The notes under the pieces: model-generated | What the model was told of the DNA's origin: nothing | Seen by the model: the letters and a program-made list of their open reading frames with translations, nothing else | Database searches by the model: none | Assembly (NCBI RefSeq): GCF_020463795.1 | Contig: NZ_CP080025.1 | Location: 3,779,501-3,843,500 of the forward strand | Direction: 5' to 3' | Length of the DNA: 64,000 nt | Source: Echinicola marina | Lineage (GTDB): Bacteria > Bacteroidota > Bacteroidia > Cytophagales > Cyclobacteriaceae | Position numbers and translations under genes: made by a program | Shown: piece after piece, positions 25,758-45,856 of the stretch | Position numbering within the stretch: position 1 is the stretch's first letter | How the letters are laid out: each line of letters begins with the position of its first letter

Positions 25758-25768
25758 TTTTGACCACC

Positions 25769-27471: not shown

Positions 27472-27508
27472 GCAGCCCAAATTTGGTTTTACGGATCATT
27501 TGGGCTGC
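27472..27508 (+). promoter_or_regulatory. Intergenic hairpin after susD (attenuator-like)
   Basis: GCAGCCCAAAT (27472-27482) and ATTTGGGCTGC (27498-27508) form a perfect 11-bp stem with a 15-base loop. No T-run follows, so it is likelier to set mRNA decay or partial attenuation after the highly expressed susCD pair than to stop transcription completely. Confidence 0.6.
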
Positions 27509-27568
27509 TACTTCTGCCATAGTATTGACCATTATTCAACCTTTAAACTGACCTATAAAAGCGTACAA

Positions 27569-29230
27569 ATGGAGTACCTCGATTATATAACGATAATTGT
27601 TTTCACCCTGATCATTTTAATGGTGGGGCTGTCCTTTGGAAAGCGGGGGGGAGATATGAAATCCTTTTTTGCTGCCGGAGGGGAAGTACCCTGGGGCATC
27701 AATGGTCTATCGCTGTTTATGAGCTTCTTTTCGGCAGGTACCTTTGTTGTATGGGGCTCCATTGCATATGAATACGGTTTGGTGGCCATCACCATCCAGA
27801 TGATGATGTGCCTAAGTGGCTTTTTGGTAGGATATTTTATTGCTCCGAAGTGGAGAAAAACAGGTGTTTTGACCGTAGCAGAATATCTGACAAAGAGATT
27901 TGGTGAAAAAGTACAAAAGTACTACACTTACCTGTTTTTATTTATCTCTTTGGGCTATACAGGGGCATTTTTGTACCCAGTGGCTAAAATTGTCAATGTA
28001 AGTACAGGCTTGGATATCTACCATTCCATATTGATTTTGGGAGGGATAATCATGGTTTATACAGCAGTGGGAGGCTTATGGGCAGTGGTGGTTACAGATG
28101 TTTTACAGTTTGTCATACTGACTTCGGCGGTATTGATTGTCATCCCTTTGTCATTGGATGAGATCAATGGAATCGATACCTTGATTTCCAAAGCTCCGGA
28201 TGGCTTTTTTCAGGTGTTCAATGGTGAATACACTCCCTTGTTTATTTTCGCCTTTTGTTTTTATAACCTGGTATTTATTGGCGGGAACTGGGCCTATGTA
28301 CAGCGGTATACCACGACTAAAAATTCAAAATCAGCCAGTAAGGTTGGCTATCTCTTTGGAGGATTATACCTGATCAGTCCCCTCATCTGGATGCTTCCTC
28401 CAATGGTATATAAAATCCTTGACCCCTCCCTGAGCGGATTGGAGTCTGAAGGAGCCTATTTATTGATGTGCAAAGAAGTACTACCCGTGGGGATGCTGGG
28501 GCTGATGCTAGGAGGGATGATCTTTGCCACGGCCAGCTCGGTCAATACTTCTTTGAACCTGGCGGCAGCCGTATTGACCAATGATGTTTATAAGCCCTTG
28601 AGGCCACATCTTTCCGAGAAAAAATTAATGGGTTTTGCCCGTCTTTCCACCTTGCTCTTTGGGGCAGGTACCATCATGATTGCCTTTTTGGTACCTATGG
28701 CCGGGGGAATAGTGGAGGTGGTTTTAAGCATAGGAGCCGTGACCGCCGGGGCTTTGTATGGTCCGGCGATATGGTCCTTGTTTTCCAAGCGCCTTACTGG
28801 AGCTTCCATTTTGCAAATAACCCTCGTCAGTTTAATCATCAATTTGTTTTTCAAGTTTGTGACGCCTTGGGCGATGGATTTTTCCTTGGACAGGAGCGAA
28901 GAGATGCTTTTGGGGATTTTGCTCCCGGTGATACTTTTGGCCGGCTACGAAGTTTATGCCCTGATAGTGGGACAGGCTTCATCGGTGATCCCAGAACTGA
29001 GCTCCGGCAATAAGGAGGAAAGTGATCCCAGCAGTGAGCAAAACATGTACGGCCTCAAAGTGATCTCCATTGCCCTGTATTCCATAGGTCTGGTGCTTTT
29101 GGTACTCACGGTTTGGGCAGCACATGCGGCCATATATTTAGCCATCATGGGGACTTTTATCATCACATTGGGAGTGGGACTGAGCAGGGTAAAAAAAATA
29201 CAAAAATCGAGTGTTAAAAAAACAATATGA
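27569..29230 (+). CDS. Sodium:solute symporter (SSS family)
   Basis: Start set at ATG 27569; the longer frame begins inside the hairpin and would add a non-hydrophobic leader before helix 1. About 550 residues with 13-14 predicted transmembrane helices, beginning DYITIIVFTLIILMVGLSFG. The family's characteristic ILGGIIMVYTAVGGLWAVVVTDVLQF block is present near residue 170. It should import a sugar, uronate or related product across the inner membrane using sodium. Its stop overlaps the FAD oxidoreductase start (ATGA), suggesting that the imported compound is the oxidoreductase substrate. Confidence 0.9.
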   Translation: MEYLDYITIIVFTLIILMVGLSFGKRGGDMKSFFAAGGEVPWGINGLSLFMSFFSAGTFVVWGSIAYEYGLVAITIQMMMCLSGFLVGYFIAPKWRKTGVLTVAEYLTKRFGEKVQKYYTYLFLFISLGYTGAFLYPVAKIVNVSTGLDIYHSILILGGIIMVYTAVGGLWAVVVTDVLQFVILTSAVLIVIPLSLDEINGIDTLISKAPDGFFQVFNGEYTPLFIFAFCFYNLVFIGGNWAYVQRYTTTKNSKSASKVGYLFGGLYLISPLIWMLPPMVYKILDPSLSGLESEGAYLLMCKEVLPVGMLGLMLGGMIFATASSVNTSLNLAAAVLTNDVYKPLRPHLSEKKLMGFARLSTLLFGAGTIMIAFLVPMAGGIVEVVLSIGAVTAGALYGPAIWSLFSKRLTGASILQITLVSLIINLFFKFVTPWAMDFSLDRSEEMLLGILLPVILLAGYEVYALIVGQASSVIPELSSGNKEESDPSSEQNMYGLKVISIALYSIGLVLLVLTVWAAHAAIYLAIMGTFIITLGVGLSRVKKIQKSSVKKTI

Positions 29231-31515
29231 ATCATAAAATGGAGATAGGTACTGCTTCCAAAGAAAAAAGAAATACGCATCGGGTAAACATGGAACCTGA
29301 TTTGGTCATTGCAGGTGGTGGTTTGGCAGGAACATGCTGTGCTATTACCGCCGCAAGGGAAGGACTCAAGGTCTGTTTGGTCCAGGATAGGCCTGTTTTG
29401 GGGGGAAATGCTTCATCTGAAGTGCGGCTGTGGATTTTGGGCGCAACCTCACACATGGGCAACAACAACCGTTGGGCAAGGGAAGGTGGGGTCATCGATG
29501 AAATATTGGTCGAAAACCTTTACCGCAACCCTGAAGGCAATCCAATTATTTTGGATACTATTCTTTTGGAAAAAGTCACCGAGGAAAATAATATCACCCT
29601 TTTACTCAACACCTGTGTTCATGAGCTTGAAAAGAAAGAAGGGGACCAGATTGATTTTATCCGTGCTTTCTGTAGCCAAAACTCTACGGAATATGTCCTA
29701 AGAGCACCTTTGTATGTGGATGCTACCGGGGATGGGCTGTTGGGGTTTCTGGCCGGAGCAGCCTTTAGAATGGGAGCAGAAATCAAAGAGGAGTTTGGAG
29801 AATTGTTTGCCCCGGATGCCAGTTATGGTGAACTGTTGGGCCACTCCATCTATTTCTACACCAAAGATGTGGGTAGGCCAGTGAAATACATGGCGCCGAG
29901 TTTTGCAAAAAAGGATATCACCGAGTTGCCAAGGTTTAAAACCTTTAACCTAAGGGAAGATGGTTGCCGTTTGTGGTGGGTGGAGTATGGTGGGAGGAGT
30001 AATACTATCCTGGCCAGTGAGGAGATCAAGTGGGAATTATGGCGCATTGTCTACGGGATATGGAACCATGTGAAGAATTCTGGTGAGTATGATGGGGTGG
30101 AAAACCTGACTTTGGAGTGGGTGGGTACAGTACCTGGTAAGCGGGAAAGCAGGAGGTTTGAAGGGGACTATATCATGACACAAAGGGATGTAGTGGAGCA
30201 GCGGGAGCATTTTGATGCCGTTTCATTTGGTGGCTGGGCGCTGGACCTGCATCCTGCAGACGGTGTGTATAGCCAAAATCCTGGCTGTACCCAATGGCAT
30301 TCAAAGGGGGTATATCAAATCCCTTTCCGAAGCATGTACAGCCGAAACATCAAAAACCTTTTTCTCGGGGGAAGACTGCTTAGTGCCAGCCATGTAGCTT
30401 TTGGGTCTACCAGGGTGATGGCCACCTGTGCCCATAATGGGCAAGCCCTGGGGATGGCTGCAAAGATATGTCGGGAAAAGAGCATATTACCACATGAAAT
30501 TATTCCCAAAGATCACCTTTCCTCACTTCAGGACAGTCTATTGGCCACAGGGCATTATATCCCCAATAAGCCATTGGGCAATGAGAGAAATGTGCTCAGC
30601 AGTGCACACCTTACTGTAAGCAGTGAGTATGCATTGAAAGGATTGCCCTTTGATGGGCCATGGAAGCCGCTGGAGTTTTCCATTGGACAATTGCTCCCTT
30701 TCGAGCAAATTAAGATTCCGGCCATGAATTTCCGTGTCAGGGCTTCACAGGCGACGGTGTTAGAGGTGGAATTACGTAAAAGCAGCAAGGCAGGCAATTT
30801 TACCCCCGATGAGGTGATCGCAAAGCAACAGGTACAGTTGGTAGCGGGAGAACAATGTGTGACGTTGGATTTTGACTATGAAAATACCACATCCCAGTAC
30901 TTATTCGTCTGCCTGATGGCAAATGATGTTTTGGAAGTAAAGTGCAGCAATAGCCGCCTGACCGGTGTTTTGTCCATTTCCAATAAATACAATAAATCGG
31001 TGGCTACAAGTAGCCTGCAATCCCCGCCTGAAAACATCGGCATAGATCAGTTCGAATTTTGGGTACCGGAGAGAAGACCGAAGGGGCATAATCTGGCTTT
31101 TGAACTGGAAGTTCCCCTCAAACCATTCGGGGCCATCAATATACTCCCGGGAGTGTTTAGGCCTACGACCAAAGTAAATGCCTGGGTGGCCTCTTTGAAT
31201 GATGCAAACCCCACGCTTCAAATTGCATGGAAAGAAAAACAAAGTATCAAAGAACTGAAATTGTTTTTTGACACGGACTATGACCATCCCATGGAATCTA
31301 CTTTAATGGGCCATCCGGAAAGTGAAATCCCATTTTGTGTAAAAAGCTATCGTATTTTAGATAAACGTGGAGAAATCCTTTACCAAAAGGAGGATAACCA
31401 TCAGACGGTGAATACCATAAGATTTGACGGTTTGGAATTGGATCAACTGACGATTGAGCTAGACCATCCTTCAAAGGATGTGCCTGCAGCGCTGTTTGGA
31501 CTTATTGCCCAATAA
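29227..31515 (+). CDS. FAD-dependent oxidoreductase (PF12831 type), apparently cytoplasmic
   Basis: 762 residues without a signal peptide. The FAD-binding Rossmann motif is DLVIAGGGLAGTCCAITAA (about 25-43), followed by LVQDRPVLGGNASSE. Further conserved blocks are VDATGDG, WVGTVPGKRESRRFEGDY and IPFRSMYSRNIKNLFLGGR (about 365-385), and GSTRVMATCAHNGQALGMAA. These match the FAD-dependent oxidoreductase family often found in glycan loci. About 300 C-terminal residues form beta-rich domains of unknown role. Translation is coupled to the upstream symporter. A related protein at 40334 carries a signal peptide instead. The substrate is unknown; a carbohydrate or carbohydrate acid is inferred from context only. 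Confidence 0.85.
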   Translation: MNHKMEIGTASKEKRNTHRVNMEPDLVIAGGGLAGTCCAITAAREGLKVCLVQDRPVLGGNASSEVRLWILGATSHMGNNNRWAREGGVIDEILVENLYRNPEGNPIILDTILLEKVTEENNITLLLNTCVHELEKKEGDQIDFIRAFCSQNSTEYVLRAPLYVDATGDGLLGFLAGAAFRMGAEIKEEFGELFAPDASYGELLGHSIYFYTKDVGRPVKYMAPSFAKKDITELPRFKTFNLREDGCRLWWVEYGGRSNTILASEEIKWELWRIVYGIWNHVKNSGEYDGVENLTLEWVGTVPGKRESRRFEGDYIMTQRDVVEQREHFDAVSFGGWALDLHPADGVYSQNPGCTQWHSKGVYQIPFRSMYSRNIKNLFLGGRLLSASHVAFGSTRVMATCAHNGQALGMAAKICREKSILPHEIIPKDHLSSLQDSLLATGHYIPNKPLGNERNVLSSAHLTVSSEYALKGLPFDGPWKPLEFSIGQLLPFEQIKIPAMNFRVRASQATVLEVELRKSSKAGNFTPDEVIAKQQVQLVAGEQCVTLDFDYENTTSQYLFVCLMANDVLEVKCSNSRLTGVLSISNKYNKSVATSSLQSPPENIGIDQFEFWVPERRPKGHNLAFELEVPLKPFGAINILPGVFRPTTKVNAWVASLNDANPTLQIAWKEKQSIKELKLFFDTDYDHPMESTLMGHPESEIPFCVKSYRILDKRGEILYQKEDNHQTVNTIRFDGLELDQLTIELDHPSKDVPAALFGLIAQ

Positions 31516-31528
31516 ACGAGTACTTAAA

Positions 31529-33901
31529 ATGACCTTTCTTAATTGTAGAAAACTATTCCAGCATCCATCAAAAGCTATAGTGGGCTGCTTTTCATTCCTT
31601 AAATGTAAAAGTACCTTACCGCTGTTGTTTTGTGGTATTGTAATCCTGTCTGGATCTGCACATTCCAGCTTGGCCCAAGGTGTTCAGAAGGATATACTTG
31701 GGCTTGAAAATAACAACCATAGCTTTAAAATAGACCCTTCCAATGGCTCTTTTTGGATTTTGGATCAGGACAGAAAAGAAGTTTTGCGCAAACACCCGAT
31801 TTCCGGAATACTGATCGGAGAGGTGGGACAAAAGGTGAGTGATGCCCATCTTCTTGAAAGCCATAAAACCGGGGAAGACCAGCTTGACGTAAAGGTGAAA
31901 AATGGAGCCGGTTTGGTGCTTCACGGTAGGATTGTACTTTCGGACCATTATCTCCATATCAAGATATGGGATGCCGACCCTTCCCAAAAAGTAAATGCAG
32001 CGATACGAAGTGCCAGTATGTCCCCGGTATATGGTTTGGGCGATTACGGTGGATATGAGGGGAAAACCAATATTTTCGGTTATAGCAATGAACATTTTAT
32101 CAATGACAAGACAAAATCCCATAATTGGAACCACTACCGGTTTGTTTCCACCTTTGCCGTATTTCCAGCTCACGGTTTAGCTCAGGTGGTCTTTGGGAAA
32201 GGGGAAAAAAGTGTCACCATCAATCAACAGGAAAATAAGATGGGCCTGTCCAAAGAAAAAGAATTCAATGCCTATTTTTTCTTTGGGGAGATGGACACCA
32301 TTTATAAAACCTACTCCCAGGTCAGGGAAAACAACGGGTATCCTTCCAAAAAGCCCAAGTTTGATTTCTTCGAACTGGGTTATGAAGCTTTTGGTGCTTT
32401 GGGCTGGAATACCTATCAATCGTCCGTTCAGGAGGATATCAATAAATACCTTGAGAAAGGCTTTCCGATAAAATGGGCTGTGGTAGGTAGTGGTTTTTGG
32501 AAAGGGGAGCGGAGAAGCCCCAAAGAGGGCAGTACCACGGCTTTTGGAATTTGGGACAGCATTCCGGCAGAAAAACGGGAAGACGGTCTGCCCAATCCCC
32601 GATATCCGCAGGTGGAAGGGCTCAAGGGCTTTTTTAAAGAAAGAGATATCAAACTGCTACTGGGAAGCCGGATCAATTTTAAGGCTTTACCTGCAGATGG
32701 AGGCAATTATTCTCCTGAAAATGATGGCAAATATGTTTTGGAAGGATTGAAAAATGGCTATTTCATCAAAAATCCGGAAGGCAAAGCACAGGTTTTTGAT
32801 GTGAATTTTCCGCAAGGAAAGACCTATTTGCTGGACACCGACAAGCCTGATGCCGTGGATTGGTTTGTCAATAAATATTCACTTTGGGGAGTAGATGGGA
32901 TTAAAGAAGATCTGATGCTCCAAGATGGGGTTTTGTTGGGAAATGATGCCAAACAAAACAAAGTAAACGAGGTGCTGATGGATCGAGAGCAGCTTGTCAT
33001 GGTGAGAAATTCGGCTTATGGTGTTCCTGGAGATGTGTTGCGCTTAGAAGATACCAAATACGGTTTTGACCAGGACAGAACTCCCATTAATGCCCTAAGT
33101 TATGCTTATAGTGGTGTCGGGAACGTGTATCCGGATATTGTGGCAGGGAAGTACCTGAAAAGTCCCTTGACCGAAGATCAAAAGCGGTATTTTGTGAGGA
33201 ATGCCATGTTGGCGGCCGTGATGCCGGTCATGTCCATGGGCTATGGGCCTTGGCATTTGGATAATGGAGGATATGAAAATGTGGTTAAAAAAGCCGTTGA
33301 TGCTCATTACTCCTTGGTGCCTTATATTTATAGTGAGGTGGTCAGGGGATATGAAACAGGATTCCCCTTTGCCATGACCCCACTTCCTTTGGCATTCCCT
33401 GATGATAGCAATACCTATGATCTGGCAAATAATACCAAGAGACAATACAGTTGGCTGATCGGTGAATCCCTTTTGGCTACACCACTTTTCGGCAATGATT
33501 ACGCCGAGGCCAGCAAAAGGGATGTGTACCTGCCCAAGGGAAAATGGATGGATTGGGAAACCAAAAAGGTGCTGGATGGGGGAAAAACCTATACCAATTA
33601 TCCTTTCCCGGATGAGAAAGTGCCGCTTTTTATAGGAGGAAAAGACTGCCTAGTATTACGTAAAGATCAAGCACTGTATTGCTATTATTTTCCCTTGAAT
33701 TTTAAAGGAGAATCCTATCGCTTTGTTTTTCCGGATGGCCTATCTGAAGCTACCGTTCATACTCCCAAAGCGGGCAGCAGGTCATTTAGCTTGACTACCA
33801 ACGAAAATACCACGGGAAAGCTTACTTGGGACGAAGAGATGAAAGCGTATTATTTTGAAATCGAAAAAGGAAAGTCATATCAAATCCAAGCAACTGAATA
33901 A
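31529..33901 (+). CDS. Glycoside hydrolase family 31-like enzyme, exported
   Basis: Start set at ATG 31529 after the upstream stop; the longer frame overlaps the FAD gene. The signal peptide is long and basic, ending near SLAQG. After an N-terminal beta domain, a TIM barrel (about 275-640) carries KGFPIKWAVVGSGFW and GVDGIKEDLML, where Asp461 lines up with the GH31 nucleophile although the usual WxDMNE motif is not present. Asp508 in RLEDTKYGFD is in the position of the acid/base. The C-terminal part (YSLVPYIYSEV, SLLATPLFG, VYLPKGKWMDWETKKVLDGG) is classic GH31. It likely removes an alpha-linked residue in the periplasm; specificity is unusual and unassigned. Confidence 0.82.
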   Translation: MTFLNCRKLFQHPSKAIVGCFSFLKCKSTLPLLFCGIVILSGSAHSSLAQGVQKDILGLENNNHSFKIDPSNGSFWILDQDRKEVLRKHPISGILIGEVGQKVSDAHLLESHKTGEDQLDVKVKNGAGLVLHGRIVLSDHYLHIKIWDADPSQKVNAAIRSASMSPVYGLGDYGGYEGKTNIFGYSNEHFINDKTKSHNWNHYRFVSTFAVFPAHGLAQVVFGKGEKSVTINQQENKMGLSKEKEFNAYFFFGEMDTIYKTYSQVRENNGYPSKKPKFDFFELGYEAFGALGWNTYQSSVQEDINKYLEKGFPIKWAVVGSGFWKGERRSPKEGSTTAFGIWDSIPAEKREDGLPNPRYPQVEGLKGFFKERDIKLLLGSRINFKALPADGGNYSPENDGKYVLEGLKNGYFIKNPEGKAQVFDVNFPQGKTYLLDTDKPDAVDWFVNKYSLWGVDGIKEDLMLQDGVLLGNDAKQNKVNEVLMDREQLVMVRNSAYGVPGDVLRLEDTKYGFDQDRTPINALSYAYSGVGNVYPDIVAGKYLKSPLTEDQKRYFVRNAMLAAVMPVMSMGYGPWHLDNGGYENVVKKAVDAHYSLVPYIYSEVVRGYETGFPFAMTPLPLAFPDDSNTYDLANNTKRQYSWLIGESLLATPLFGNDYAEASKRDVYLPKGKWMDWETKKVLDGGKTYTNYPFPDEKVPLFIGGKDCLVLRKDQALYCYYFPLNFKGESYRFVFPDGLSEATVHTPKAGSRSFSLTTNENTTGKLTWDEEMKAYYFEIEKGKSYQIQATE

Positions 33902-36202
33902 ATGTATAAAGTAAAGACATTCATATTAACGTTCGTGGTGTTTGTTGGTGGAGCCACTGCTACATTTTGCCAACAAAACAATCTAGCCGTATTGGGGGAG
34001 GTTGAAGCAAGTACCGACGAAGAAGGGGAGCAAGTAAGTCAAGTAATAGATGGACTTAAAGCGTCTGGAAACGGATGGAAAATAAGTGGAAATGAGGAGG
34101 CCTCATGGATCATGGTCAGACTGCCCGGAGCTACTGAAATAAGTACTTTAATGGTGGCGTTTGACAGTTTTCAGACTCCATTAACTTCTTTTAAAATCCA
34201 AGTGATGCATAATGGTCAATGGAGAGATATCAAAAACGTGACTGAAAATGATGCATTTACGGTTCGCGTAAATCCTGAAAAGCCCATTTTGGCTGACCGC
34301 ATCCGCTTGTATACGGAAGAAAAAAGTGAAGCAGTCATTTCAGAGATTGAAATTTATGGGCAAGAGTATGTGGACAGTTCAGTGGAAGAGGTACCAAGAA
34401 TTTTGGTCAACCAAAGTGGCTATAACCTTCATCGGACAAAACGGTTTTCCATGCCCTCTGCTGAAGAAGGAACAAGGTTTCATGTCAAAAGCAACAGCGA
34501 CGACAAGGTACTTTATAGTGGAGAAATTAATGCTGGGATAGGGGATATTACCGATTTTGAACCTCGTTCAAGCGAAGAGTTCTATATTGAGTCCGCAGAG
34601 GAACGTTCCTATCCGTTTAGAATCGGGATCAATTGGCTGGAGCGTATCAGTTATCGAAACATGGTGGATTTTATGATCGGAGCCAGGCATTATGTGGGCA
34701 CTACGGATCAAATACGGCCTTTGTCCTGGGCCTGGAGAGATGGTGATTTTTTTAATTGGGCGGAGCAAAGTTTGGTTACCATGTTCTTGGCCAATCCCTC
34801 TGTGTTTAAAGATATGGAACAGACCATTCGGTATGTCCCCAACAGTGACTTTGATGATAAGTACCTGGGCAAATGGGGGAAGCTGCTTCCCTATGACGAA
34901 AATACCCCGGATCTTGTCCAGCTGATCCATTGGGATGCAGATGTGAAAATTTCCCAGCAATTGGAACATGAAATGCAGAAGTGCGAACTGGCCTATTTTC
35001 TTTACGCTTGGCCATACTTAGAGGGGTGGTTGCCCAGACAGAATTTCGAAGTCGTCTATGACTATCTGAAAGAAAAGTGGACTAAAAGTGAAGTGGGAGA
35101 TTATTCCACTACAAAATACGATCAAAGTACCGACCATAATCTTCTGTCTCTAAAAACTTCCATAGGCACAACAAAAGGGGAAATGCCTCCGGGTTATTCC
35201 GTGATACCTAATCTGATGATGTACGAAGTGGCAAAAGATCAGGGGGAGCAAGATGCCGATAAATATTTCCATGCTGCCTATCAGCAAATGGAATGGCTGA
35301 TCGAGTACTTGGATTGGCAGGATCCGATGGTGACAAAGGGCCAGCGGATGTCCGAACATGTGACCATGCGAGCCTTTGCCTATTTTTACCATGAATATCC
35401 CGACAGGGCCCCGAAAGGATTACACAAAAAGGTGGAAGAATGGGCAAAAGTGGCACTGGCAAGATCAGACAATTACTGGGATTTTAGAAAATACAGCGAA
35501 AAGGAATGGACACCGCCAAGTTGGAATGAAACAGGCAATGTATTGGGGTTTCCGGCAGCGGCGCTTTCTGCTATGTCTATATTGGAAGACAATGAACTGA
35601 TTGCTGAACTGGAAATATTGGTTTGGTCGCACTTTGATAATGCATTTGGTAGAAACCCCACAGGAAGACATTTTTCATACAATGGGCCGGAAGAAATAGA
35701 AGGAGTGGACAAAGGTTGGTACAGCATGCACAAGGGGGGGATTGGCTTATTGGAGGAAGTCAAATTCGTCTTTGATGGCTCCCCAAAATCTTTCCATTAT
35801 CCTAACCATCCGGAAGTTGGGAATTTAGGGTGGACGGAAGGATGGGTGCAGTTCAATACCGCTTATAATCTTAGCATGGCCTATTTGGCAAAGTATTACA
35901 GCAGTGTAAACCTTTTGCAGCAAAAGAACCAAATCATTGTCTCCCTAAAAGCCCCTGTTAATTTCCATCAGGAAAAGCGTGAAACAGCAGCTGTAAGATT
36001 GACCAATGAGCAGGGGCAAAGCATTGTGGTCACTGTGACTGAACATGATCCATATATGGATGAACTCAAAACAAATCTTAGGATCAAAAAAGGGATGCTG
36101 AAGATTGGTGATCAAAAACTTCCTGTCCGTAAGGGTGGAAAATTAACAGCCTCTTATGGCTATGGTTTTATGCAATCCGAAAACAGCCTAACTGTCCAAT
36201 AA
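33902..36202 (+). CDS. Exported F5/8C plus CelD_N-like plus six-hairpin-type protein
   Basis: 766 residues; the start codon directly follows the preceding stop. A signal peptide (to about 23) is followed by an F5/8 type C-like beta sandwich (about 25-155, TEISTLMVAFDSFQTPLTSFKIQVM), then an Ig-like domain resembling the cellulase N-terminal domain (about 160-260, RILVNQSGYNLHRTKRF). The remainder looks like an (alpha/alpha)6 barrel, with FGRNPTGRHF and FNTAYNLSMAYLAKYY near the C-terminus recalling GH9. The GH9 DAGD motif is not visible; SWAWRDGDF occurs instead. A glycosidase or lyase role is plausible but unproven. Next gene starts 7 bases later. Confidence 0.6.
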   Translation: MYKVKTFILTFVVFVGGATATFCQQNNLAVLGEVEASTDEEGEQVSQVIDGLKASGNGWKISGNEEASWIMVRLPGATEISTLMVAFDSFQTPLTSFKIQVMHNGQWRDIKNVTENDAFTVRVNPEKPILADRIRLYTEEKSEAVISEIEIYGQEYVDSSVEEVPRILVNQSGYNLHRTKRFSMPSAEEGTRFHVKSNSDDKVLYSGEINAGIGDITDFEPRSSEEFYIESAEERSYPFRIGINWLERISYRNMVDFMIGARHYVGTTDQIRPLSWAWRDGDFFNWAEQSLVTMFLANPSVFKDMEQTIRYVPNSDFDDKYLGKWGKLLPYDENTPDLVQLIHWDADVKISQQLEHEMQKCELAYFLYAWPYLEGWLPRQNFEVVYDYLKEKWTKSEVGDYSTTKYDQSTDHNLLSLKTSIGTTKGEMPPGYSVIPNLMMYEVAKDQGEQDADKYFHAAYQQMEWLIEYLDWQDPMVTKGQRMSEHVTMRAFAYFYHEYPDRAPKGLHKKVEEWAKVALARSDNYWDFRKYSEKEWTPPSWNETGNVLGFPAAALSAMSILEDNELIAELEILVWSHFDNAFGRNPTGRHFSYNGPEEIEGVDKGWYSMHKGGIGLLEEVKFVFDGSPKSFHYPNHPEVGNLGWTEGWVQFNTAYNLSMAYLAKYYSSVNLLQQKNQIIVSLKAPVNFHQEKRETAAVRLTNEQGQSIVVTVTEHDPYMDELKTNLRIKKGMLKIGDQKLPVRKGGKLTASYGYGFMQSENSLTVQ

Positions 36203-36208
36203 GAGGAA

Positions 36209-37735
36209 ATGGAAGTTACCATAGATAAAACTTGCCCAAAGTCATTAATGCATAGCCTCATGCTTGTCTTTTTTCTTGTACTTGTTCTGCTGGGGTACAG
36301 CAGCTTGGCACAAACCGGTAAAAAAGCAATTGTTCCCAGTGCTAAAGCCAAAAGGAGTTATACTTTATTGCCTTTGGGGGATTCCATTACCGAGGGAGGA
36401 AGTTCCTTTTCCTCTTACTTATACCCCTTATGGGAGCAGCTTTTTACGGAAGGCTATCAGGTTGAGTTTATTGGCCCAAATAACAGCCCCTCCAGAATAG
36501 GAGGGATAGCCCATGCAGGTTTTGGAGGGAAAACTACGGAGTTTCTGGCGCAGCAGATTGATAGTATTTACCATCAATATCCTGCTGACATTGTATTGCT
36601 GCACAGTGGACATAACCATTTTTCTGAAGAAAAACCGATAGCCCAGATCATTGAAGCGCAAAGTACCATTATCCATAAAATTAAGAGGATAAATCCAGAT
36701 GCCATTATTATGGTGGCTCAGGTCATTGAAAGTGGTAAGCTTCCAAAATATGCCTATCTGCCATCGCTTAATGCTGCCACTGCTTCCATGGTAAAGACAT
36801 TGGAAGAGCAGTATGACGGCCTTTACTTAGTGGACCAGGCAACTGGATTTTTATGGAAAGAGCATACTGTAACGGATAAGGTACATCCCAATAAGGCCGG
36901 GGCTGAAATAATGGCAAAGAATTGGTTCAATGCCCTGAGAGAGGTTTTAAAAGCTCCCAAATGGTCATTGAAGCCAACTTTGGTTACCTATAAGGAGGTG
37001 GAAAACAGGGATTTAAAACTTCATATTTTTACTAAGAAACCAGGCAATATAGAAAAGAAGAAGCCCTGTATCCTGTTTTTCTTTGGTGGAGGATGGAAGG
37101 TGGGATCTCCCCTACAATTTTATAGAGAATGTGCGCATTTTGCCGAAAAAGGTTTTGTGGCCATCAGTGCAGACTATCGCATCGATTATCTGGATAAGTC
37201 CACCATCTTTGATTGTATCAGTGATGCCAAGTCTGCGGTCCGTTGGGTGAGGGAAAACGCGGAAGAGTTGGGAATAGATGCCGATAAAATAGCGGTGGCC
37301 GGTGCCTCAGCAGGAGGATATCTGGCTGCTGCCACTGCTACGGTTGATGGTTATGATAAAGCAGGGGAAAATCTGGTGATAAGTTCCCGGCCAAATCTGA
37401 ATATCCTTTATTATCCGGTAATAGACAACGCACCTGGGGGATATGGTTCTGATGAGATGAAAGCAAATTACAAAGCAATCTCTCCCCTGTACTGTTTGGA
37501 TCAAGAAGCTCCGCCTAGTCTTATTTTATTGGGAAGTGAAGACCCTTATTTGTCCGTCAATAATGCAGAGAAATACATAGACCAATTGAAAGCATTTGGT
37601 ATCAAAGGAAAGCTAAAAGTTTATAGGGGAGCCGGCCACCCCATCTTTTATTACCGTAAGGGTGTGGGAGAGGCTTATTTCCACACTCTTAGGGATACAG
37701 AAGCCTTCCTGAAAAAACAGGGCTATTTCTATTGA
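36209..37735 (+). CDS. Two-domain esterase: GDSL/SGNH plus alpha/beta-hydrolase
   Basis: 508 residues with an N-terminal export signal (hydrophobic MLVFFLVLVLLGYSSLAQ; ATG 36248 is an alternative start). Domain 1 (about 45-245) is SGNH-type, with LPLGDSITEGG, LHSGHNHF and VHPNKAGAE supplying Ser, Asn/Gly and His. Domain 2 (about 265-505) is an alpha/beta-hydrolase of the carbohydrate-esterase/BD-FAE type: FFFGGGW oxyanion region, nucleophile in GASAGG, acid in LGSEDPYL and His in GAGHPIF. Two different ester-cleaving centres on one chain suggest a substrate with both acetyl and another ester, or two acetyl positions. Confidence 0.83.
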   Translation: MEVTIDKTCPKSLMHSLMLVFFLVLVLLGYSSLAQTGKKAIVPSAKAKRSYTLLPLGDSITEGGSSFSSYLYPLWEQLFTEGYQVEFIGPNNSPSRIGGIAHAGFGGKTTEFLAQQIDSIYHQYPADIVLLHSGHNHFSEEKPIAQIIEAQSTIIHKIKRINPDAIIMVAQVIESGKLPKYAYLPSLNAATASMVKTLEEQYDGLYLVDQATGFLWKEHTVTDKVHPNKAGAEIMAKNWFNALREVLKAPKWSLKPTLVTYKEVENRDLKLHIFTKKPGNIEKKKPCILFFFGGGWKVGSPLQFYRECAHFAEKGFVAISADYRIDYLDKSTIFDCISDAKSAVRWVRENAEELGIDADKIAVAGASAGGYLAAATATVDGYDKAGENLVISSRPNLNILYYPVIDNAPGGYGSDEMKANYKAISPLYCLDQEAPPSLILLGSEDPYLSVNNAEKYIDQLKAFGIKGKLKVYRGAGHPIFYYRKGVGEAYFHTLRDTEAFLKKQGYFY

Positions 37736-37825
37736 ATGCTTTTGTTTTTCTCATTAAGTCAAGATGATTTGGATGGAATGAAGCTTGGTTTGATTTAATA
37801 CAATTTGACATAACCCCATAAGAAT

Positions 37826-40312
37826 ATGAATTATAGAAATCTAATAGTTGTTACATTATTTTTTTGTTTGATTGCCAATATAGGATGCCAATCCAATGAG
37901 GACAAACAAAATAGAGGGGCATCATTCAGGCAATTCAGCGGTATTTACCCTCATTTGGCTTATTATAATGATGAAGGAGAGTGTGGTACAGGGGCGGTGG
38001 TTCCATGGGCCGGTGGGCTTTGGGTGATCACTTATGGACCCCATATGCCTTATGGATCTTCGGATAAACTATATGAAGTGACCCCTGGATTGGAACAGAT
38101 TGTCCATAAGGAAAGTATAGGAGGAACACCTGCCAATAGGATGATTCATGAAGAAAGTAAGCAGCTGTTTATTGGTCCTTATGCAATAGATGAGGAGGGA
38201 AAGCCAAGGGTGATATCTTATGATAAAATGCCTGGAAGGCATACTGGAAATGCTCGACACCTGACAGATCCAGAAAATAAAATCTACTATGGAACCATGG
38301 AAGAAGGATTTTATGAAGTGGATGTGGAGAGTTTAGAGGTAAAAGAACTATATGTGGATGGTAATCAGGTGAGGAGAAAGGGCGAGGAACCGCAGTTTAG
38401 TCCCTTGCTACCAGGAGCGCATGGAAAGGGCTTGTATTCTGGGCAGGGTGTAATGGTCTTTTCCAATAATGGGGAAGATGTGCCGGAGGCCAAAAGACAA
38501 TTTGATATTGAAGCAGGGGCCTTGGCAGAGTGGGATGGAAAGAACTGGAAATTGGTGCGAAGAAACCAATTTGTCGAAATTACCGGTCCTGGAGGGATTT
38601 ATGGTAATTCAAATCCGGAAACAGATCCTATTTGGGCTACAGGATGGGATCACAGATCTGTTTTACTTGGTGTAAGGGACAATAAGAAAGGTTGGGAGTT
38701 TTTTAGACTTCCGAAGGCTTCACATTCTTACGATGGGGCACATGGATGGAATACAGAATGGCCAAGAATTAGAGATATAGGAACTCAAAATGATCCTGAT
38801 TACCTAATGACTATGCACGGTTTATTTTGGGATTTCCCTAAAACATTTAGCGTTGGAAATACTAAAGGGATAAGACCCAGGTCAGCCTATTTGAAGGTTA
38901 TAGGCGATTACACCAGATGGAACGATCAGTTGGTGTTTGGTTGTGATGACTCTGCCCAAAAAGAGTTTTTGAACAAAAGAAACGTCAAAGGAAGCATTGA
39001 AGGTCCAGGCCAGTCCAATTCCAATCTTTGGTTTACAAGCATGGACAAGCCAGATCAGTTGGGACCAAATACAGCTGAGGGATCACTTTATATCAATGAA
39101 AATATTAAAGCAGGAGAAGCATCAGATCCATTTTTATTCGCAGGTTGGGACCAACGTATAGCATGGGTTGATAATAATGGAACATCCTCTGTCAATCTTA
39201 CTTTTCAGGTTGATATCAGTGGTAATGGAGAATGGCAAGATCTTAAAGAAGTGGAAGTCCCAGCAAATAGCTCTGTGGATGTTTCATTTGAAAAAGAGGA
39301 AAAAGGGGAATGGATTAGGGTAATAGCTGATAAATCAACTAAAGGAACGGTGTTTTTTACTTACACAGACAACAGTCGATTTGACAGGTCTGATAAAGGA
39401 ATGTTTGAGGGGATGGCCAGTATTGAGGAAGAAAGTTATAATGCAGGACTGCTTTATGGTTTAGGAGATAATAGAAGAAGTTTGGGGATTTTGGCAGGAA
39501 ATGTTGAGCAGGGGAAATTTCAAAAAACAGCTTATTATGAATTGGATGGAAATATGAACTTGCTGAAAAAGGAAGATCCGAAAACATCTGATTTCATCGA
39601 AAATAAATTTGCCATTCCTAAAGAGGTGGTAAGTGTTGAAGAAAGTTCTGTGCTGGTAATTGACGACTTGGGTCGAAGATGGAGATTCCCTTTGGGAGAT
39701 GCTCAGTTTGATAAGCTTACCAATAATGGTATTCAGCGGATTGCCAGAGAAGTAGCTACAGAGAGAGATCTGATGAATTTACATGGAACATTCTATGAAT
39801 TACCAGCCGAAAATGCAGATGGTTTTGCAAAGGTAAGGCCTGTATCTTCCCATAATTTGGCAGTGTATGATTATGCCTCTTATAGGGGATTATTGGTGAT
39901 GACCGGGATTGATCCTGAAATTGGGAATTCAGAACACGTGATTGTTTCTGAAGACGGAAAAGCTGCAGTATGGGCAGGAGTAATTGATGATTTATGGGAG
40001 TTGGGCAAGCCTATGGGGCAAGGAGGACCATGGAAAAACACTAAGGTTCAGGCTAATGAAAGTTCTGATCCATATTTGATAGGGTTTTATGATAAGAAGT
40101 CAATGACATTGTCTCATGATGCAGCTCAACCTGTTAACTTTACTGTAGAAGTAGAACCTATTGGACATGGTCCGTGGATGGAATATAAGACTTTTGAAGT
40201 AAAGCCAGGGGAGAAGCTGGAATATGTGTTCCCTGATGATTTCCAAGTAAGATGGATTCGATTTAGCGTTGATCAGGATTGCAAGGCTACCAGCTGGTTA
40301 GATTATAAATAA
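37826..40312 (+). CDS. Unrecognised lipoprotein with internal module duplication
   Basis: 828 residues. The leader ends in LIANIGCQS, a probable lipoprotein signal. The family was not recognised. Residues about 30-320 have short repeating beta patterns (GGLWVITYG, KIYYGTMEEGFYEVD, PIWATGWDHRSVLLG), suggesting a propeller. A roughly 180-residue module then occurs twice, at about 328-515 and 650-828: both copies contain HG.F...P, a later RP.S segment, SDP[FY]L, a beta-sandwich and a closing W-I-R strand. Charged and aromatic content suggests sugar binding or hydrolysis, but no catalytic motif can be named. It precedes the exported FAD oxidoreductase by 21 bases, so the two are probably made together. 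Confidence 0.7.
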   Translation: MNYRNLIVVTLFFCLIANIGCQSNEDKQNRGASFRQFSGIYPHLAYYNDEGECGTGAVVPWAGGLWVITYGPHMPYGSSDKLYEVTPGLEQIVHKESIGGTPANRMIHEESKQLFIGPYAIDEEGKPRVISYDKMPGRHTGNARHLTDPENKIYYGTMEEGFYEVDVESLEVKELYVDGNQVRRKGEEPQFSPLLPGAHGKGLYSGQGVMVFSNNGEDVPEAKRQFDIEAGALAEWDGKNWKLVRRNQFVEITGPGGIYGNSNPETDPIWATGWDHRSVLLGVRDNKKGWEFFRLPKASHSYDGAHGWNTEWPRIRDIGTQNDPDYLMTMHGLFWDFPKTFSVGNTKGIRPRSAYLKVIGDYTRWNDQLVFGCDDSAQKEFLNKRNVKGSIEGPGQSNSNLWFTSMDKPDQLGPNTAEGSLYINENIKAGEASDPFLFAGWDQRIAWVDNNGTSSVNLTFQVDISGNGEWQDLKEVEVPANSSVDVSFEKEEKGEWIRVIADKSTKGTVFFTYTDNSRFDRSDKGMFEGMASIEEESYNAGLLYGLGDNRRSLGILAGNVEQGKFQKTAYYELDGNMNLLKKEDPKTSDFIENKFAIPKEVVSVEESSVLVIDDLGRRWRFPLGDAQFDKLTNNGIQRIAREVATERDLMNLHGTFYELPAENADGFAKVRPVSSHNLAVYDYASYRGLLVMTGIDPEIGNSEHVIVSEDGKAAVWAGVIDDLWELGKPMGQGGPWKNTKVQANESSDPYLIGFYDKKSMTLSHDAAQPVNFTVEVEPIGHGPWMEYKTFEVKPGEKLEYVFPDDFQVRWIRFSVDQDCKATSWLDYK

Positions 40313-40333
40313 ACAATATATCCAAAATAGATT

Positions 40334-42112
40334 ATGATGAAGCAATATCTCTTTGCAGTAATTTTTACTTTGTTGGCTATAACTACTGGATATGGCCGGC
40401 AAAATGGTGTTTTGATAGAAGCGGAAAGCTTTGATGATTTAGGGGATTGGTTGGTAGACCCGCAGTTTGTCGAACAAATGGGATCTCCCTATTTGCTAGC
40501 ACATGGCATGGGGGAGCCCGTGTCAAATGCCTCTACGAGCTTTAAAATCAAGGATAAAGGGGCATACCATATTTGGGTAAGGAGTAAGAACTGGGCTCCA
40601 GGGGACTGGAAAGCTCCAGGAAGGTTTCAATTGGCTGTAAATGGTAATGTACTGTCAAGTGAATTAGGAACCCAAGCAGGTTGGGGTTGGGAGTATGTAG
40701 GTATGGCTGAATTAAAGAAAAAGACTGTTGAGCTAGAGTTAATTGATTTGACAGGCTTTGATGGAAGATGTGATGCCATTTATTTTTCTCAATCAAGGGA
40801 CGATGTTCCCCCTAGAGCTGGAAAGTCCTTGGCTGAATGGAGGAAAAGTGCCAAAGGTGAAAGTGACCAGCCAGCTGTAGTGGAAGAATATGATTTGGTG
40901 GTAGTTGGAGGTGGAATTGCCGGTTGTGCAGCAGCCATTGCCGCAGCGGAGCAAGGTCTGGAAGTTGCTCTGATTCATGATAGACCTGTATTGGGCGGAA
41001 ATGCCAGTAGTGAAATTCGCGTGCATACATTAGGGATTTATGGCAATTTTGAAAGAATCCTCAAAATGCTGGATACGGAACATTATCCAAATGGCTCGCC
41101 AGAAGCTTATAGGGATGAAGATAAGCGTCATCAAAATATATCAAAATATAAGAATATAGCGCTATACACCAATTGGAGAGCTTATGATGCTTTGGCCGAG
41201 GGAAATACCATTACAGCGGTAGATGCAAGGCACACCTCAGCAGGAAAAAGAATCCGTTTCAAGGCACCTCGTTTTGTCGATTCAACAGGAGATGGCTGGA
41301 TAGGCTATTGGGCTGGTGCAGAGTTTTCCTACGGTAGGGAAGCTGTAGATCAATATGGTGAGGCTTATGAAGAATGGGGAGAGTTGTGGTCTCCCAATAA
41401 AGCAGATGGATTCGTAATGGGTTCATCTGTGCTTTGGAGAACTTATCAAGCGGATAAAGCTTATGAATTCCCTAAAGTACCTTGGGCAGAAGAAGTAGCT
41501 ATGGGACATGAAGCAAAAGCTGGTACATGGAAGTGGGAGCTTTCCCGTTTGGATTATCACCAAATAGAGGATGCAGAAGAAATCAGGGATCATATGCTAA
41601 AAGCTATCTATGGATCCTTTGCCAATCAAAAGGAGTTGCCAGGCATGGAAAAACTTAAATTTGAGTGGATTTCTTATTTAGTTGGGAAAAGAGAGTCCAG
41701 AAGGTTGGTAGGAGATTATATTTTTACTTTTAATGATGTAACGGAGCAAAGAAAGTTTTCTGATGCTGTGGTAATGGAAGAAAGGGAAGTGGACGTGCAT
41801 TACCAACAAAATCTAAAAGATGCTTCAAAACCTGATTTTCTGTCAGAGGCCATATTTTACAGAACACCAATGTATTATATCCCTTATAGAAGCTTATATT
41901 CCAAAAATATCAGTAACCTATTTATGGCAGGGCGTAATTTCAGCTGTTCTCATATCGGCTTAGGAGGTCCAAGGGTAATGAGGACTACTGGTCAAATGGG
42001 GGCTGCAGTGGGCTTTGCTGCTGCCATTTGTGCCAAATACCAATGTGATCCTAGGTCTGTTTATGAGGATCATTTGGACGAATATTTAGAGTTAATAGAA
42101 AAGCAAAAGTGA
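40334..42112 (+). CDS. Exported FAD-dependent oxidoreductase with N-terminal carbohydrate-binding-like domain
   Basis: 592 residues; ATG at 40334 or 40337. A signal peptide (about 1-22, ending near GYGRQ) is followed by a beta-sandwich (about 25-160, VLIEAESFDDLGDW, GAYHIWVRSKNWAPGDW, CDAIYFS) like those in sugar-binding modules. The FAD domain begins at YDLVVVGGGIAGCAAA (about 185-200), followed by LIHDRPVLGGNASSEIR. WISYLVGKRESRRLVGDY, IPYRSLYSKNISNLFMAGRN and GGPRVMRTTGQMGAAVGFAA match the cytoplasmic relative at 29227. Export by a Sec-type signal without a twin arginine is unusual for a flavoenzyme. Its stop overlaps the next gene's GTG. Confidence 0.83.
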   Translation: MMKQYLFAVIFTLLAITTGYGRQNGVLIEAESFDDLGDWLVDPQFVEQMGSPYLLAHGMGEPVSNASTSFKIKDKGAYHIWVRSKNWAPGDWKAPGRFQLAVNGNVLSSELGTQAGWGWEYVGMAELKKKTVELELIDLTGFDGRCDAIYFSQSRDDVPPRAGKSLAEWRKSAKGESDQPAVVEEYDLVVVGGGIAGCAAAIAAAEQGLEVALIHDRPVLGGNASSEIRVHTLGIYGNFERILKMLDTEHYPNGSPEAYRDEDKRHQNISKYKNIALYTNWRAYDALAEGNTITAVDARHTSAGKRIRFKAPRFVDSTGDGWIGYWAGAEFSYGREAVDQYGEAYEEWGELWSPNKADGFVMGSSVLWRTYQADKAYEFPKVPWAEEVAMGHEAKAGTWKWELSRLDYHQIEDAEEIRDHMLKAIYGSFANQKELPGMEKLKFEWISYLVGKRESRRLVGDYIFTFNDVTEQRKFSDAVVMEEREVDVHYQQNLKDASKPDFLSEAIFYRTPMYYIPYRSLYSKNISNLFMAGRNFSCSHIGLGGPRVMRTTGQMGAAVGFAAAICAKYQCDPRSVYEDHLDEYLELIEKQK

Positions 42113-43203
42113 AGTGCTATTATAGAAAATTAATGCTTTTTACTTTCCCCTTTTTGCTCTTATTGGGTTTTGAGGGGAAAGAACTTTTTAAACCTCTTTT
42201 TATGGAACTAACCTTAAAAAGCCAAGAAAATTATGATGGTATCTCTATAGGGAGTTATTCGGAAGACGATTATATTGAACCAATTAATATTGAATTGTAC
42301 AATTTTCATGGAATTCCTGCTTTTTATAGTTCTGAATTTGCTACTGCAGTATGTGAAGATAAAATATGTGAATTATTGCATATCAAGTTGTTTTGGGATT
42401 TGACAGGTAATTATATTGGTTATGACACACTCGCAGGCCATCCTCTGACCAAATTTGACCATGAACCATTTGAAAAGGAGGATTATATAAAATTACATGA
42501 ATTGCTCATGAATGATGGAACTATCTTAAAGTTCAAAAGAAAGGATGAGCTAATCGATAAGAAGATTTTGAGGCCTTCTGATGTAATTGATGGTACTACA
42601 GGTGCCACTGCTTTGGAAATAAAAGAAGAGGTGGTAAAGGGGGCACTTTATACCTCTTATACGCTTTGGCATATTGCACATAAAGGGGAAATACAAAACC
42701 TGCTCAATGAGCAAACTAAAAAGTCGTATACTAAAGAACTTGCCATTGAAATGATGAACTCCGATCGAGACAGCTATCGAATTTTTGCGGTAGATCAGTT
42801 AAGCGTAGATGAGCTTTCGGAAAATATCCCCTTTTTGATCATTGGCTTGAAGCAAGGTAATCCCCTTTTAAGGAAAACAATATTACAAAAGGTGCCTAGC
42901 CCACTTTGGAATGACTTGGATTTCCAGGCAAAGGTCTGCAGTTTGTATGGGCTTTTGGATGTCAATTCAAGGTTTTATTTGCTTCAAAGCTTGAAGGAAG
43001 TTGCCCTTGTTTATTCGCATAGTTTGGAAGAGCTCTCCAAGTATTTAAATAAAATGTCTAAGAATCAGCTGTTGGAATATTTGGAACTTGTGAGCAACTC
43101 AGGGGAGTTAAGCAATTCTTTGAAAACCAATTTGTCAGAATTTGCACGTAGTGAAAACAGGTATGGCTATCTTGTGATGGATTCAGGAATAGTAGAGGAT
43201 TAA
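42109..43203 (+). CDS. Protein with degenerate FMN-binding-like motif and helical repeats
   Basis: 364 residues if the GTG at 42109, overlapping the preceding TGA (GTGA), is used; ATG 42133 is an alternative. A hydrophobic N-terminus (LMLFTFPFLLLLGF) suggests export. Residues about 40-200 include WDLTGNYIGYD, LTKFDHEPFEKEDY and DGTTGATALEI (161-171). The latter resembles the D-x-x-S-G-A-T-x-T motif of FMN_bind domains, but the final Thr/Ser that would carry covalent FMN is replaced by Leu. The C-terminal half (about 205-350) is alpha-helical, HEAT-like. Translational coupling to the exported FAD oxidoreductase suggests a partner role. Family not firmly recognised. Confidence 0.6.
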   Translation: MKCYYRKLMLFTFPFLLLLGFEGKELFKPLFMELTLKSQENYDGISIGSYSEDDYIEPINIELYNFHGIPAFYSSEFATAVCEDKICELLHIKLFWDLTGNYIGYDTLAGHPLTKFDHEPFEKEDYIKLHELLMNDGTILKFKRKDELIDKKILRPSDVIDGTTGATALEIKEEVVKGALYTSYTLWHIAHKGEIQNLLNEQTKKSYTKELAIEMMNSDRDSYRIFAVDQLSVDELSENIPFLIIGLKQGNPLLRKTILQKVPSPLWNDLDFQAKVCSLYGLLDVNSRFYLLQSLKEVALVYSHSLEELSKYLNKMSKNQLLEYLELVSNSGELSNSLKTNLSEFARSENRYGYLVMDSGIVED

Positions 43204-45822: not shown

Positions 45823-45850
45823 AATATTTTTGACACGTAACAAAAATATT
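45823..45850 (+). promoter_or_regulatory. Inverted repeat just before the RND pump start codon
   Basis: AATATTTTTG (45823-45832) and CAAAAATATT (45841-45850) are perfect 10-base inverted arms with an 8-base spacer, ending 6 bases before ATG 45857. The left arm contains a -7-like TATTTTTG. It may be an operator or a hairpin in the mRNA leader covering the start. Confidence 0.5.
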
Positions 45851-45856
45851 TTCTTG

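Follow-up and report, generated by a model that had tools for sequence, protein, structure and literature searches.

A polysaccharide utilisation locus of Echinicola marina encodes an exported flavoenzyme and, directly downstream, a protein with a flavinylation motif, and the two may form an electron transfer pair outside the cytosol. The stretch analysed (the window) comprises 64,000 nucleotides of contig NZ_CP080025.1, positions 3,779,501 to 3,843,500, from a genome of 5.69 Mb in a single contig. The locus was identified by a SusC/SusD pair and carbohydrate-active enzymes detected with Pfam and NCBIfam. In the reading favoured here, which is judged to have an even chance of being right as a whole, a periplasmic, sugar-oxidising enzyme dependent on flavin adenine dinucleotide (FAD) hands electrons to a carrier with covalently bound flavin mononucleotide (FMN), and this carrier represents a new family of ApbE substrates. 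The argument is built at the sequence level on gene order, domains, the motif and its conservation, the pairing of the putative carrier with export-type FAD enzymes, and the presence of apbE in the clusters of some relatives. It starts from the following features.

29227..31515, + strand: FAD1, cytosolic PF12831 flavoenzyme of 762 amino acids (PF12831, 309 bits; no export signal by inspection)
40334..42112, + strand: FAD2, exported PF12831 flavoenzyme (PF12831, 237 bits at 187-582; Sec-type signal by inspection)
42109..43203, + strand: putative FMN partner of 364 amino acids, probably membrane-anchored or secreted (flavinylation motif, C-terminal HEAT-like helices)
42589..42609, + strand: flavinylation motif D161-G-T-T-G-A-T167 inside the FMN partner (D-x-x-[S/T]-G-A-[S/T])

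An alignment of 15 members of the partner family, in which the others are 21-53% identical to the window protein, revealed the invariant residues C82, C87, W96, G100, L113, F121, L133, D161, A166, T167 and W187. The stretch from D161 to T167, DGTTGAT, fits the ApbE flavinylation motif, for which a review gives D-x-x-[S/T]-G-A-[S/T] with the last residue modified and seven residues being enough (PMC12052999). It is the sole strict motif among the 46 frames of at least 150 amino acids in the window. In total, 38 pairs of a partner and an FAD gene were checked in batches of 22 and 16 (23 search hits, 13 pairs from FAD2 loci and two from the reading of FAD1 operons). The target threonine is kept in all of them, and the strict motif in 27. 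Covalent attachment of FMN to the partner is considered very probable.

An initial annotation of the window had called the partner FMN_bind-like. The likeness holds for the ApbE target motif, while the FMN_bind domain (PF04205) was not detected. No Pfam match was obtained at E ≤ 0.001 and the PF04205 cut-off was not reached; weak matches to PF04205 occur in three of the 15 members (best E 0.043). When the family profile was compared with 24 FMN_bind domains, only ten motif columns could be aligned (P 6.2e-5), with P values of 0.044-0.59 for five column shuffles and of 0.3 with the motif masked. Since there is no PF04205 match and only motif columns align, the partner shares the target motif and not detectably the domain, and its assignment as an FMN_bind domain was rejected. 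The NqrC protein of the same genome (PF04205) also has a flavinylation motif, DGMSGAT, but no clear similarity to the partner outside of it, the HHalign probability being 13%. In a structural model of the partner, the C-terminal helical part resembles a HEAT-like repeat at a predicted local distance difference test (pLDDT) of about 72-94, and the Foldseek matches, to HEAT-like and designed repeats, did not reach E ≤ 0.001. The N-terminus contains a hydrophobic segment by inspection, and the model places a helix at 3-18, where its confidence is low. A contig search with the partner gene detected two Echinicola loci only, the nearest named one in Echinicola salinicaeni with 97% identity (such a search may omit very close records).

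Partner genes were searched in 59 relatives (E ≤ 0.001), and a profile of 15 rows was run against 395 genomes of the phylum (E ≤ 1e-8). The family is present in 12 of the former and in eight of the latter, all eight belonging to the class of the window's genome. The 16 hits of the first search, window included, and the nine of the second have two in common, giving 23 distinct hits. A PF12831-type gene is adjacent to the partner in all 23, in G423 one gene away; these neighbours were recognised by similarity to the window FAD proteins, three divergent ones by Pfam. In the window, the FAD2 and partner genes overlap by 4 bp. By inspection, the FAD frame beside the partner has a Sec-like or twin-arginine translocation (Tat)-like start in 38 of 38 pairs (for G015 and G010b taken from the first of two frames), and for this reason the partner appears to serve exported PF12831 enzymes. 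A search of 241 genomes for FAD2 itself yielded 25 loci that were kept, one of which runs off its contig. Among the 24 usable loci, window included, 15 have a partner gene within 1.5 kb of FAD2. Electron exchange between FAD2 and the partner is considered highly likely. Two partner-linked FAD proteins, of 1,096 amino acids (L071, 10210-13497) and 1,056 amino acids (L109, 6519-9686), contain three PF12831 stretches each and are apparently enlarged or doubled. In G450, a protein with DUF7133 and cytochrome c domains (L111, 15497-17887) is encoded one GH2-like gene away from the FAD2-partner pair and is a possible electron acceptor.

The host genome harbors a single ApbE gene (PF02424, 290 bits), which is located elsewhere. 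In relatives, apbE was detected within 1.5 kb of nine of the 15 FAD2-partner pairs, all of family f11; one of these genes was identified by Pfam and the rest by similarity to that one. In G423 of family f26, apbE lies between the FAD gene and the partner.

In family f5, with two genomes of the same genus (G104 and G117), FAD2 has no neighbour of the partner family. A plain motif scan detected DGISGAT in the gene adjoining FAD2, which specifies a Gfo/Idh/MocA oxidoreductase; its product has a Tat-like start in G104, and the frame in G117 lacks the N-terminus. In G117, apbE follows directly downstream of FAD2, with the Gfo/Idh gene on the other side. This gene was the one strict match outside the partner among 405 frames of at least 250 amino acids from 43 loci, not all of these frames being genes. 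Among 241 genomes of the order, 22 encode a single homologue each (E ≤ 1e-40), with both f5 proteins counted. One of these homologues is cut before the site; of the 21 spanning it, 20 have the strict motif and the last reads DGVSSAT. An apbE gene is located within 1.5 kb of six of the 22 homologues, once overlapping the gene start. The genome of the window has one gene of this motif type (L175, 1489-2742; G000:C1:2765057-2766265), and Tat-like starts were seen in the loci of the family (L165-L184) where inspected. On these grounds, the motif-bearing Gfo/Idh/MocA family is a candidate for flavinylated sugar dehydrogenases. Five of its proteins were scanned and scored 88-105 bits versus a cut-off of 750 for BT_2158; their top NCBIfam matches are to inositol 2-dehydrogenase and, in second to third place, to glycoside 3-dehydrogenase models. 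According to PMC11300592, BT2158, whose model these proteins match in part, is a glycoside 3-dehydrogenase of the periplasm. Because of these top models and the role of BT2158, a sugar or polyol is the likeliest substrate of the flavin-wired exported oxidoreductases, and a sugar as substrate of FAD2 is considered probable. More broadly, and at somewhat less than even confidence, glycan loci of Bacteroidota may contain an undescribed respiratory branch in which exported PF12831 enzymes and, in other lineages, flavinylated, Tat-exported Gfo/Idh/MocA enzymes deliver electrons from sugars to the membrane via covalent FMN. Both the 364-amino-acid family and the motif-bearing Gfo/Idh/MocA proteins would then be new ApbE substrates, the latter as nicotinamide sugar dehydrogenases wired to a covalent flavin.

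A number of observations weigh against the favoured reading. An apbE gene is absent from the window cluster, and the 20 kb read in G104 yielded none either. The nine apbE-linked pairs represent few independent events, since all are from one family. The strict motif is missed by 11 of the 38 partners, nine of which have Ala at position 4 (DAKAGAT, DVKAGAT) and two of which read DGISSAT and DALSGST. Of the Ala variants, all but one are members of f11 with a linked apbE, eight in number (L050, L054, L077, L078, L055 and L079 are named examples), and just one of the nine apbE-linked f11 pairs, that of G174, has the strict motif. The pairs with the best motif are thus mostly not those with apbE nearest by: either ApbE tolerates Ala at this position, or the motif is weaker evidence in f11. 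The apbE linkage of these variants and the invariant target threonine offset this adverse point. In nine of the 24 usable FAD2 loci, no partner-family gene is present within 1.5 kb; six of them specify Tat-like-start proteins of f19, and two are the f5 loci with the Gfo/Idh protein. For seven of the nine, no motif-bearing neighbour is known, and some exported FAD2 members thus seem to work without a partner. The distance matrices of partner and FAD proteins speak for the favoured reading, with a correlation of 0.85 across 22 of the 38 pairs that none of 2000 permutations reached, but this value is uncorrected for shared ancestry. The partner model is of low quality around the motif, and an AlphaFold model of FAD2 from four sequences (pLDDT 39) was unusable. 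The PDB comparison turned up no PF12831 enzyme of established sugar activity, its best stretches covering only the FAD-binding region. An association with aerobic life was considered as support and discarded: heme-copper oxidase is present in 33 of 33 partner-bearing genomes versus 188 of 198 phylum genomes over the cut-off, and does not discriminate.

The two flavoproteins of the window are related, as had been proposed from their motif order. Both belong to PF12831 (cut-off 27 bits), FAD1 covering positions 1-415 and FAD2 positions 1-413 of the 416 in the profile, and they are 34% identical over 438 columns (E 1e-55). The initial annotation also described FAD2 as exported with a sugar-binding-like domain, and FAD1 as a cytoplasmic protein coupled to an SSS symporter. 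Inspection agrees with a signal sequence and a sugar-binding-like N-terminal domain in FAD2, and with the lack of an export signal in FAD1, whose gene overlaps the symporter gene by 4 bp. Outside the window, 20 FAD1 loci of more than 900 bits were chosen from FAD and partner hits. In 19 of them an SSS gene is part of the gene run of FAD1, the remaining one being a contig end, and in none of the 20 does a partner stand beside FAD1 instead of FAD2. FAD1 and SSS are located within about 12 kb of FAD2 and partner in ten other genomes read (G239, G046, G219, G211, G135, G028, G203, G267, G273 and G450). In four more (G108, G162, G174 and G194), FAD1-like and FAD2 hits are about 10 kb apart, as judged from the coordinates of FAD hits only. 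The families with both arrangements together are f1, f11, f19 and f26. Each arrangement also occurs alone. Nine loci (L117-L125) contain an operon of SSS, GH2 and FAD1 genes, eight of them with a GH88-like gene, and neither FAD2 nor partner in the 20 kb read; SusC/D genes accompany this operon in most of these loci. FAD2-partner pairs with no FAD1 in the stretch read were seen in a number of cases. Uptake plus cytosolic FAD1 and exported FAD2 plus partner are therefore best described as two modules that often travel together. The conservation of both FAD genes with their neighbours, which had been put forward as a check, was thus found for the modules, while the exact seven-gene set was seen in the window only. 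In G009 and G007, of the same genus, the order is SusC, SusD, sulfatase, lipoprotein, FAD2 and partner. In a further genome of this genus (G001, L060), the lipoprotein-FAD2-partner run is flanked by SusC and sulfatase frames reduced to short fragments, as if from an internal deletion.

The open reading frames of the initial annotation were found at the places and with the lengths it reported. The remaining features of the locus are these.

21276..22292, - strand: LacI-type regulator, divergent from SusC (LacI by inspection only)
22590..25757, + strand: SusC/RagA TonB-dependent receptor (TIGR04056, 907 bits)
25760..27457, + strand: SusD-like lipoprotein (PF07980, PF14322)
27500..29230, + strand: SSS Na+/solute symporter (PF00474, TIGR00813)
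31478..33901, + strand: GH31-like enzyme with export-like start (PF01055 and PF21365)
33902..36202, + strand: F5/8C and CelD_N protein (PF00754, PF02927)
36209..37735, + strand: GDSL and BD-FAE double esterase (PF13472, PF20434)
37826..40312, + strand: duplicated lipoprotein of 828 amino acids with a weak CBM35 at the C end (Pfam, self-comparison)
43329..45620, - strand: GH95-family glycosidase, convergent (PF22124, 174 bits)

The LacI-like gene lies divergently upstream of SusC, consistent with the earlier description of a LacI-linked locus, and similar genes are found in two related loci, L048 and L125. From SusC to the partner, a signal-peptide-like start is missing only in SSS and FAD1 by inspection. 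The symporter has the Na+/iodide and Na+/glucose cotransporters as PDB relatives, and by inspection it probably starts at a later in-frame ATG (MEYLDYITI). The GH95 gene is possibly part of the same locus. Further downstream, a frame of 1452 amino acids (window 45830-50188) resembles by inspection an RND efflux pump fused to a TolC-like outer-membrane protein, and two sulfatase-domain genes follow at 51970-53934 and 56256-58118.

The enzymes around the FAD genes look like ordinary hydrolases and esterases. The GH31-like protein had been thought to possess an altered nucleophile motif, which was not borne out: both PF01055 and PF21365 score above cut-off, and one local alignment places GIKEDLML opposite GFKFDAGD in the GH31 alpha-galactosidase of known structure 8j50, by which the nucleophile Asp appears to be kept. 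The description of the next protein as six-hairpin-type without GH9 agrees with the Pfam result, in which only F5/8C families and CelD_N, and no GH9 domain, were detected at E ≤ 0.001; its fold is presumably (alpha/alpha)6, and no PDB sequence matched it at E ≤ 0.1. L066 encodes a homologue close to FAD2, and in L067 one adjoins FAD1. Pfam recovered both halves of the double esterase, GDSL and BD-FAE. The internal duplication reported for the lipoprotein was reproduced with 28% identity over 188 columns (E 2e-19), and this type of lipoprotein adjoins FAD2 in three genomes of the same genus (L060, L062 and L064) and in L074. A likeness of its family to lambda-carrageenase, found near an FAD-partner pair, was considered, and the comparison gave nothing. 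That lambda-carrageenase gene (L126, 4746-7727) lies upstream of an exported FAD-partner pair with two small open reading frames between, and sulfatase-like genes are located further upstream. In relatives generally, the neighbours include sulfatases, GH2, GH97, lambda-carrageenase and GH43-like genes, a set that suggests glycans with sulfate or other decorations, though not a particular substrate for the window. The GH88-like protein of the related operons (840 amino acids) has no close solved relative and matches unsaturated glucuronyl hydrolases weakly (E 0.0013); a uronic-acid substrate was therefore not concluded.

In the favoured reading, the locus would import a complex glycan that is probably acylated and, if the relatives are a guide, often carries sulfate. 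FAD2 would oxidise a hydroxyl of a glycan fragment in the periplasm and pass the electrons to the partner, with FMN covalently attached by ApbE at Thr167, from where they would enter the respiratory chain. The fragment would be taken up by the SSS symporter, and FAD1 would perform the same oxidation, or its reversal, on the imported sugar; whether FAD1 acts on the same sugar as FAD2 is evenly balanced. Sugar oxidation on both sides of the inner membrane, as originally suggested, remains plausible, with direction and substrate being inferred. The opening of glycosidic bonds by redox chemistry, part of the same suggestion, is not claimed: it gains no direct support from the enzymes around the FAD genes, which look like ordinary hydrolases and esterases, or from NCBIfam, where none of ten locus proteins matched a 3-keto-glycoside family (for FAD2 among the best 25 of 62 matches).

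The direction of electron flow is the weakest step, because flavinylated enzymes of the fumarate and urocanate type act as reductases (PMC8238504); oxidation rather than reduction is moderately likely. In the reverse case, electrons would run from the membrane via the FMN partner to FAD2, which would reduce an unsaturated or keto sugar or an aglycone. The characterised flavinylated extracytosolic enzymes resembling fumarate and urocanate reductases run in this way (PMC8238504), and the nucleotide-binding stretch of FAD2 is nearest in PDB sequences to flavocytochrome c fumarate reductases. This match, however, is confined to about 46 residues in the FAD-binding stretch, and Pfam and NCBIfam revealed no lyase yielding an unsaturated sugar among ten locus proteins. 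The heme-copper oxidases of the genomes with a partner gene also speak against it, although most of the phylum genomes sampled have them as well. A reductive role is considered rather unlikely. It is also unlikely that an ordinary polysaccharide locus carries two oxidoreductases for unrelated side substrates, such as inositols or aglycones, with no joint pathway. Such a view would fit the separate occurrence of FAD1/SSS and FAD2/partner, but not their joint presence in ten other genomes read and four more by coordinates, distributed over four families.

Alternatively, the 364-amino-acid protein could be unflavinylated, a HEAT-repeat scaffold for FAD2 in which the motif is needed for folding or docking. 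The HEAT-like C-terminal part, the lack of a PF04205 match over cut-off with profile likeness confined to the motif, and the 11 of 38 members missing the strict motif would be in line with this. Against it stand the threonine shared by all 38 members, the clustering of apbE with the pair at several loci and the finding that in f5 an unrelated protein bearing this motif takes the partner's place; it is considered improbable. Finally, a redox-neutral FAD2 (mutase, epimerase or elimination) receiving occasional electrons from the FMN partner, as hinted at by UDP-galactopyranose mutases among its weak PDB matches, is very improbable, as these matches are confined to the FAD-binding stretch and a dedicated partner plus apbE would be costly for mere priming.

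Polysaccharide loci are usually read as machines for hydrolysis and uptake. If periplasmic sugar oxidation with a flavinylated carrier is correct, part of the energy of a glycan would be harvested before uptake and electrons fed into carriers of the cell envelope. Genes annotated merely as FAD-dependent oxidoreductase would gain a testable role, and two substrate families would be added to ApbE.

Periplasmic FAD-dependent sugar oxidation coupled to respiration is carried out by FAD glucoside 3-dehydrogenase. This enzyme, with its cytochrome c and hitchhiker subunits, presumably belongs to the GMC family and is taken to be unrelated to PF12831; unlike it, the present locus is proposed to use a covalent flavin carrier and not cytochrome c. 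The BT2158 route of Bacteroides likewise involves an exported sugar oxidoreductase in Bacteroidota, and in f5 a Gfo/Idh/MocA protein replaces the FMN partner beside FAD2. In contrast to BT2158, the window enzymes are of the FAD_oxidored type with no BT_2158 match, and no 3-keto-glycoside family, BT_2158/BT_2159 included, was detected for ten locus proteins (NCBIfam, E ≤ 0.001; for FAD2 among the best 25 of 62 matches). With the ApbE-flavinylated extracytosolic systems (FMN_bind, DUF2271, DUF3570, fumarate and urocanate reductases; PMC8238504, PMC11334425), the pair shares the motif, a probably secreted or anchored carrier, apbE clustered in some relatives and a partner flavoenzyme outside the cytosol. 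DUF2271 and DUF3570 were earlier shown to be ApbE substrates (PMC8238504), and the partner would be a comparable case of an ApbE substrate outside FMN_bind. It differs in that the carrier has no recognisable Pfam family and its flavoenzyme is a PF12831 protein in a SusC/SusD glycan locus. In a word search of the main texts of PMC8238504 and PMC11334425, neither PF12831 nor Gfo was encountered; 'sugar' and 'MocA' are absent from the former and 'carbohydrate' from the latter. Likewise, no flavinylated PF12831 or Gfo/Idh system was among the literature matches listed (titles and abstract starts of open-licence papers). ApbE-flavinylated extracytosolic electron transfer is thus known, while the carrier family, its PF12831 partner and the glycan-locus setting appear to be new.

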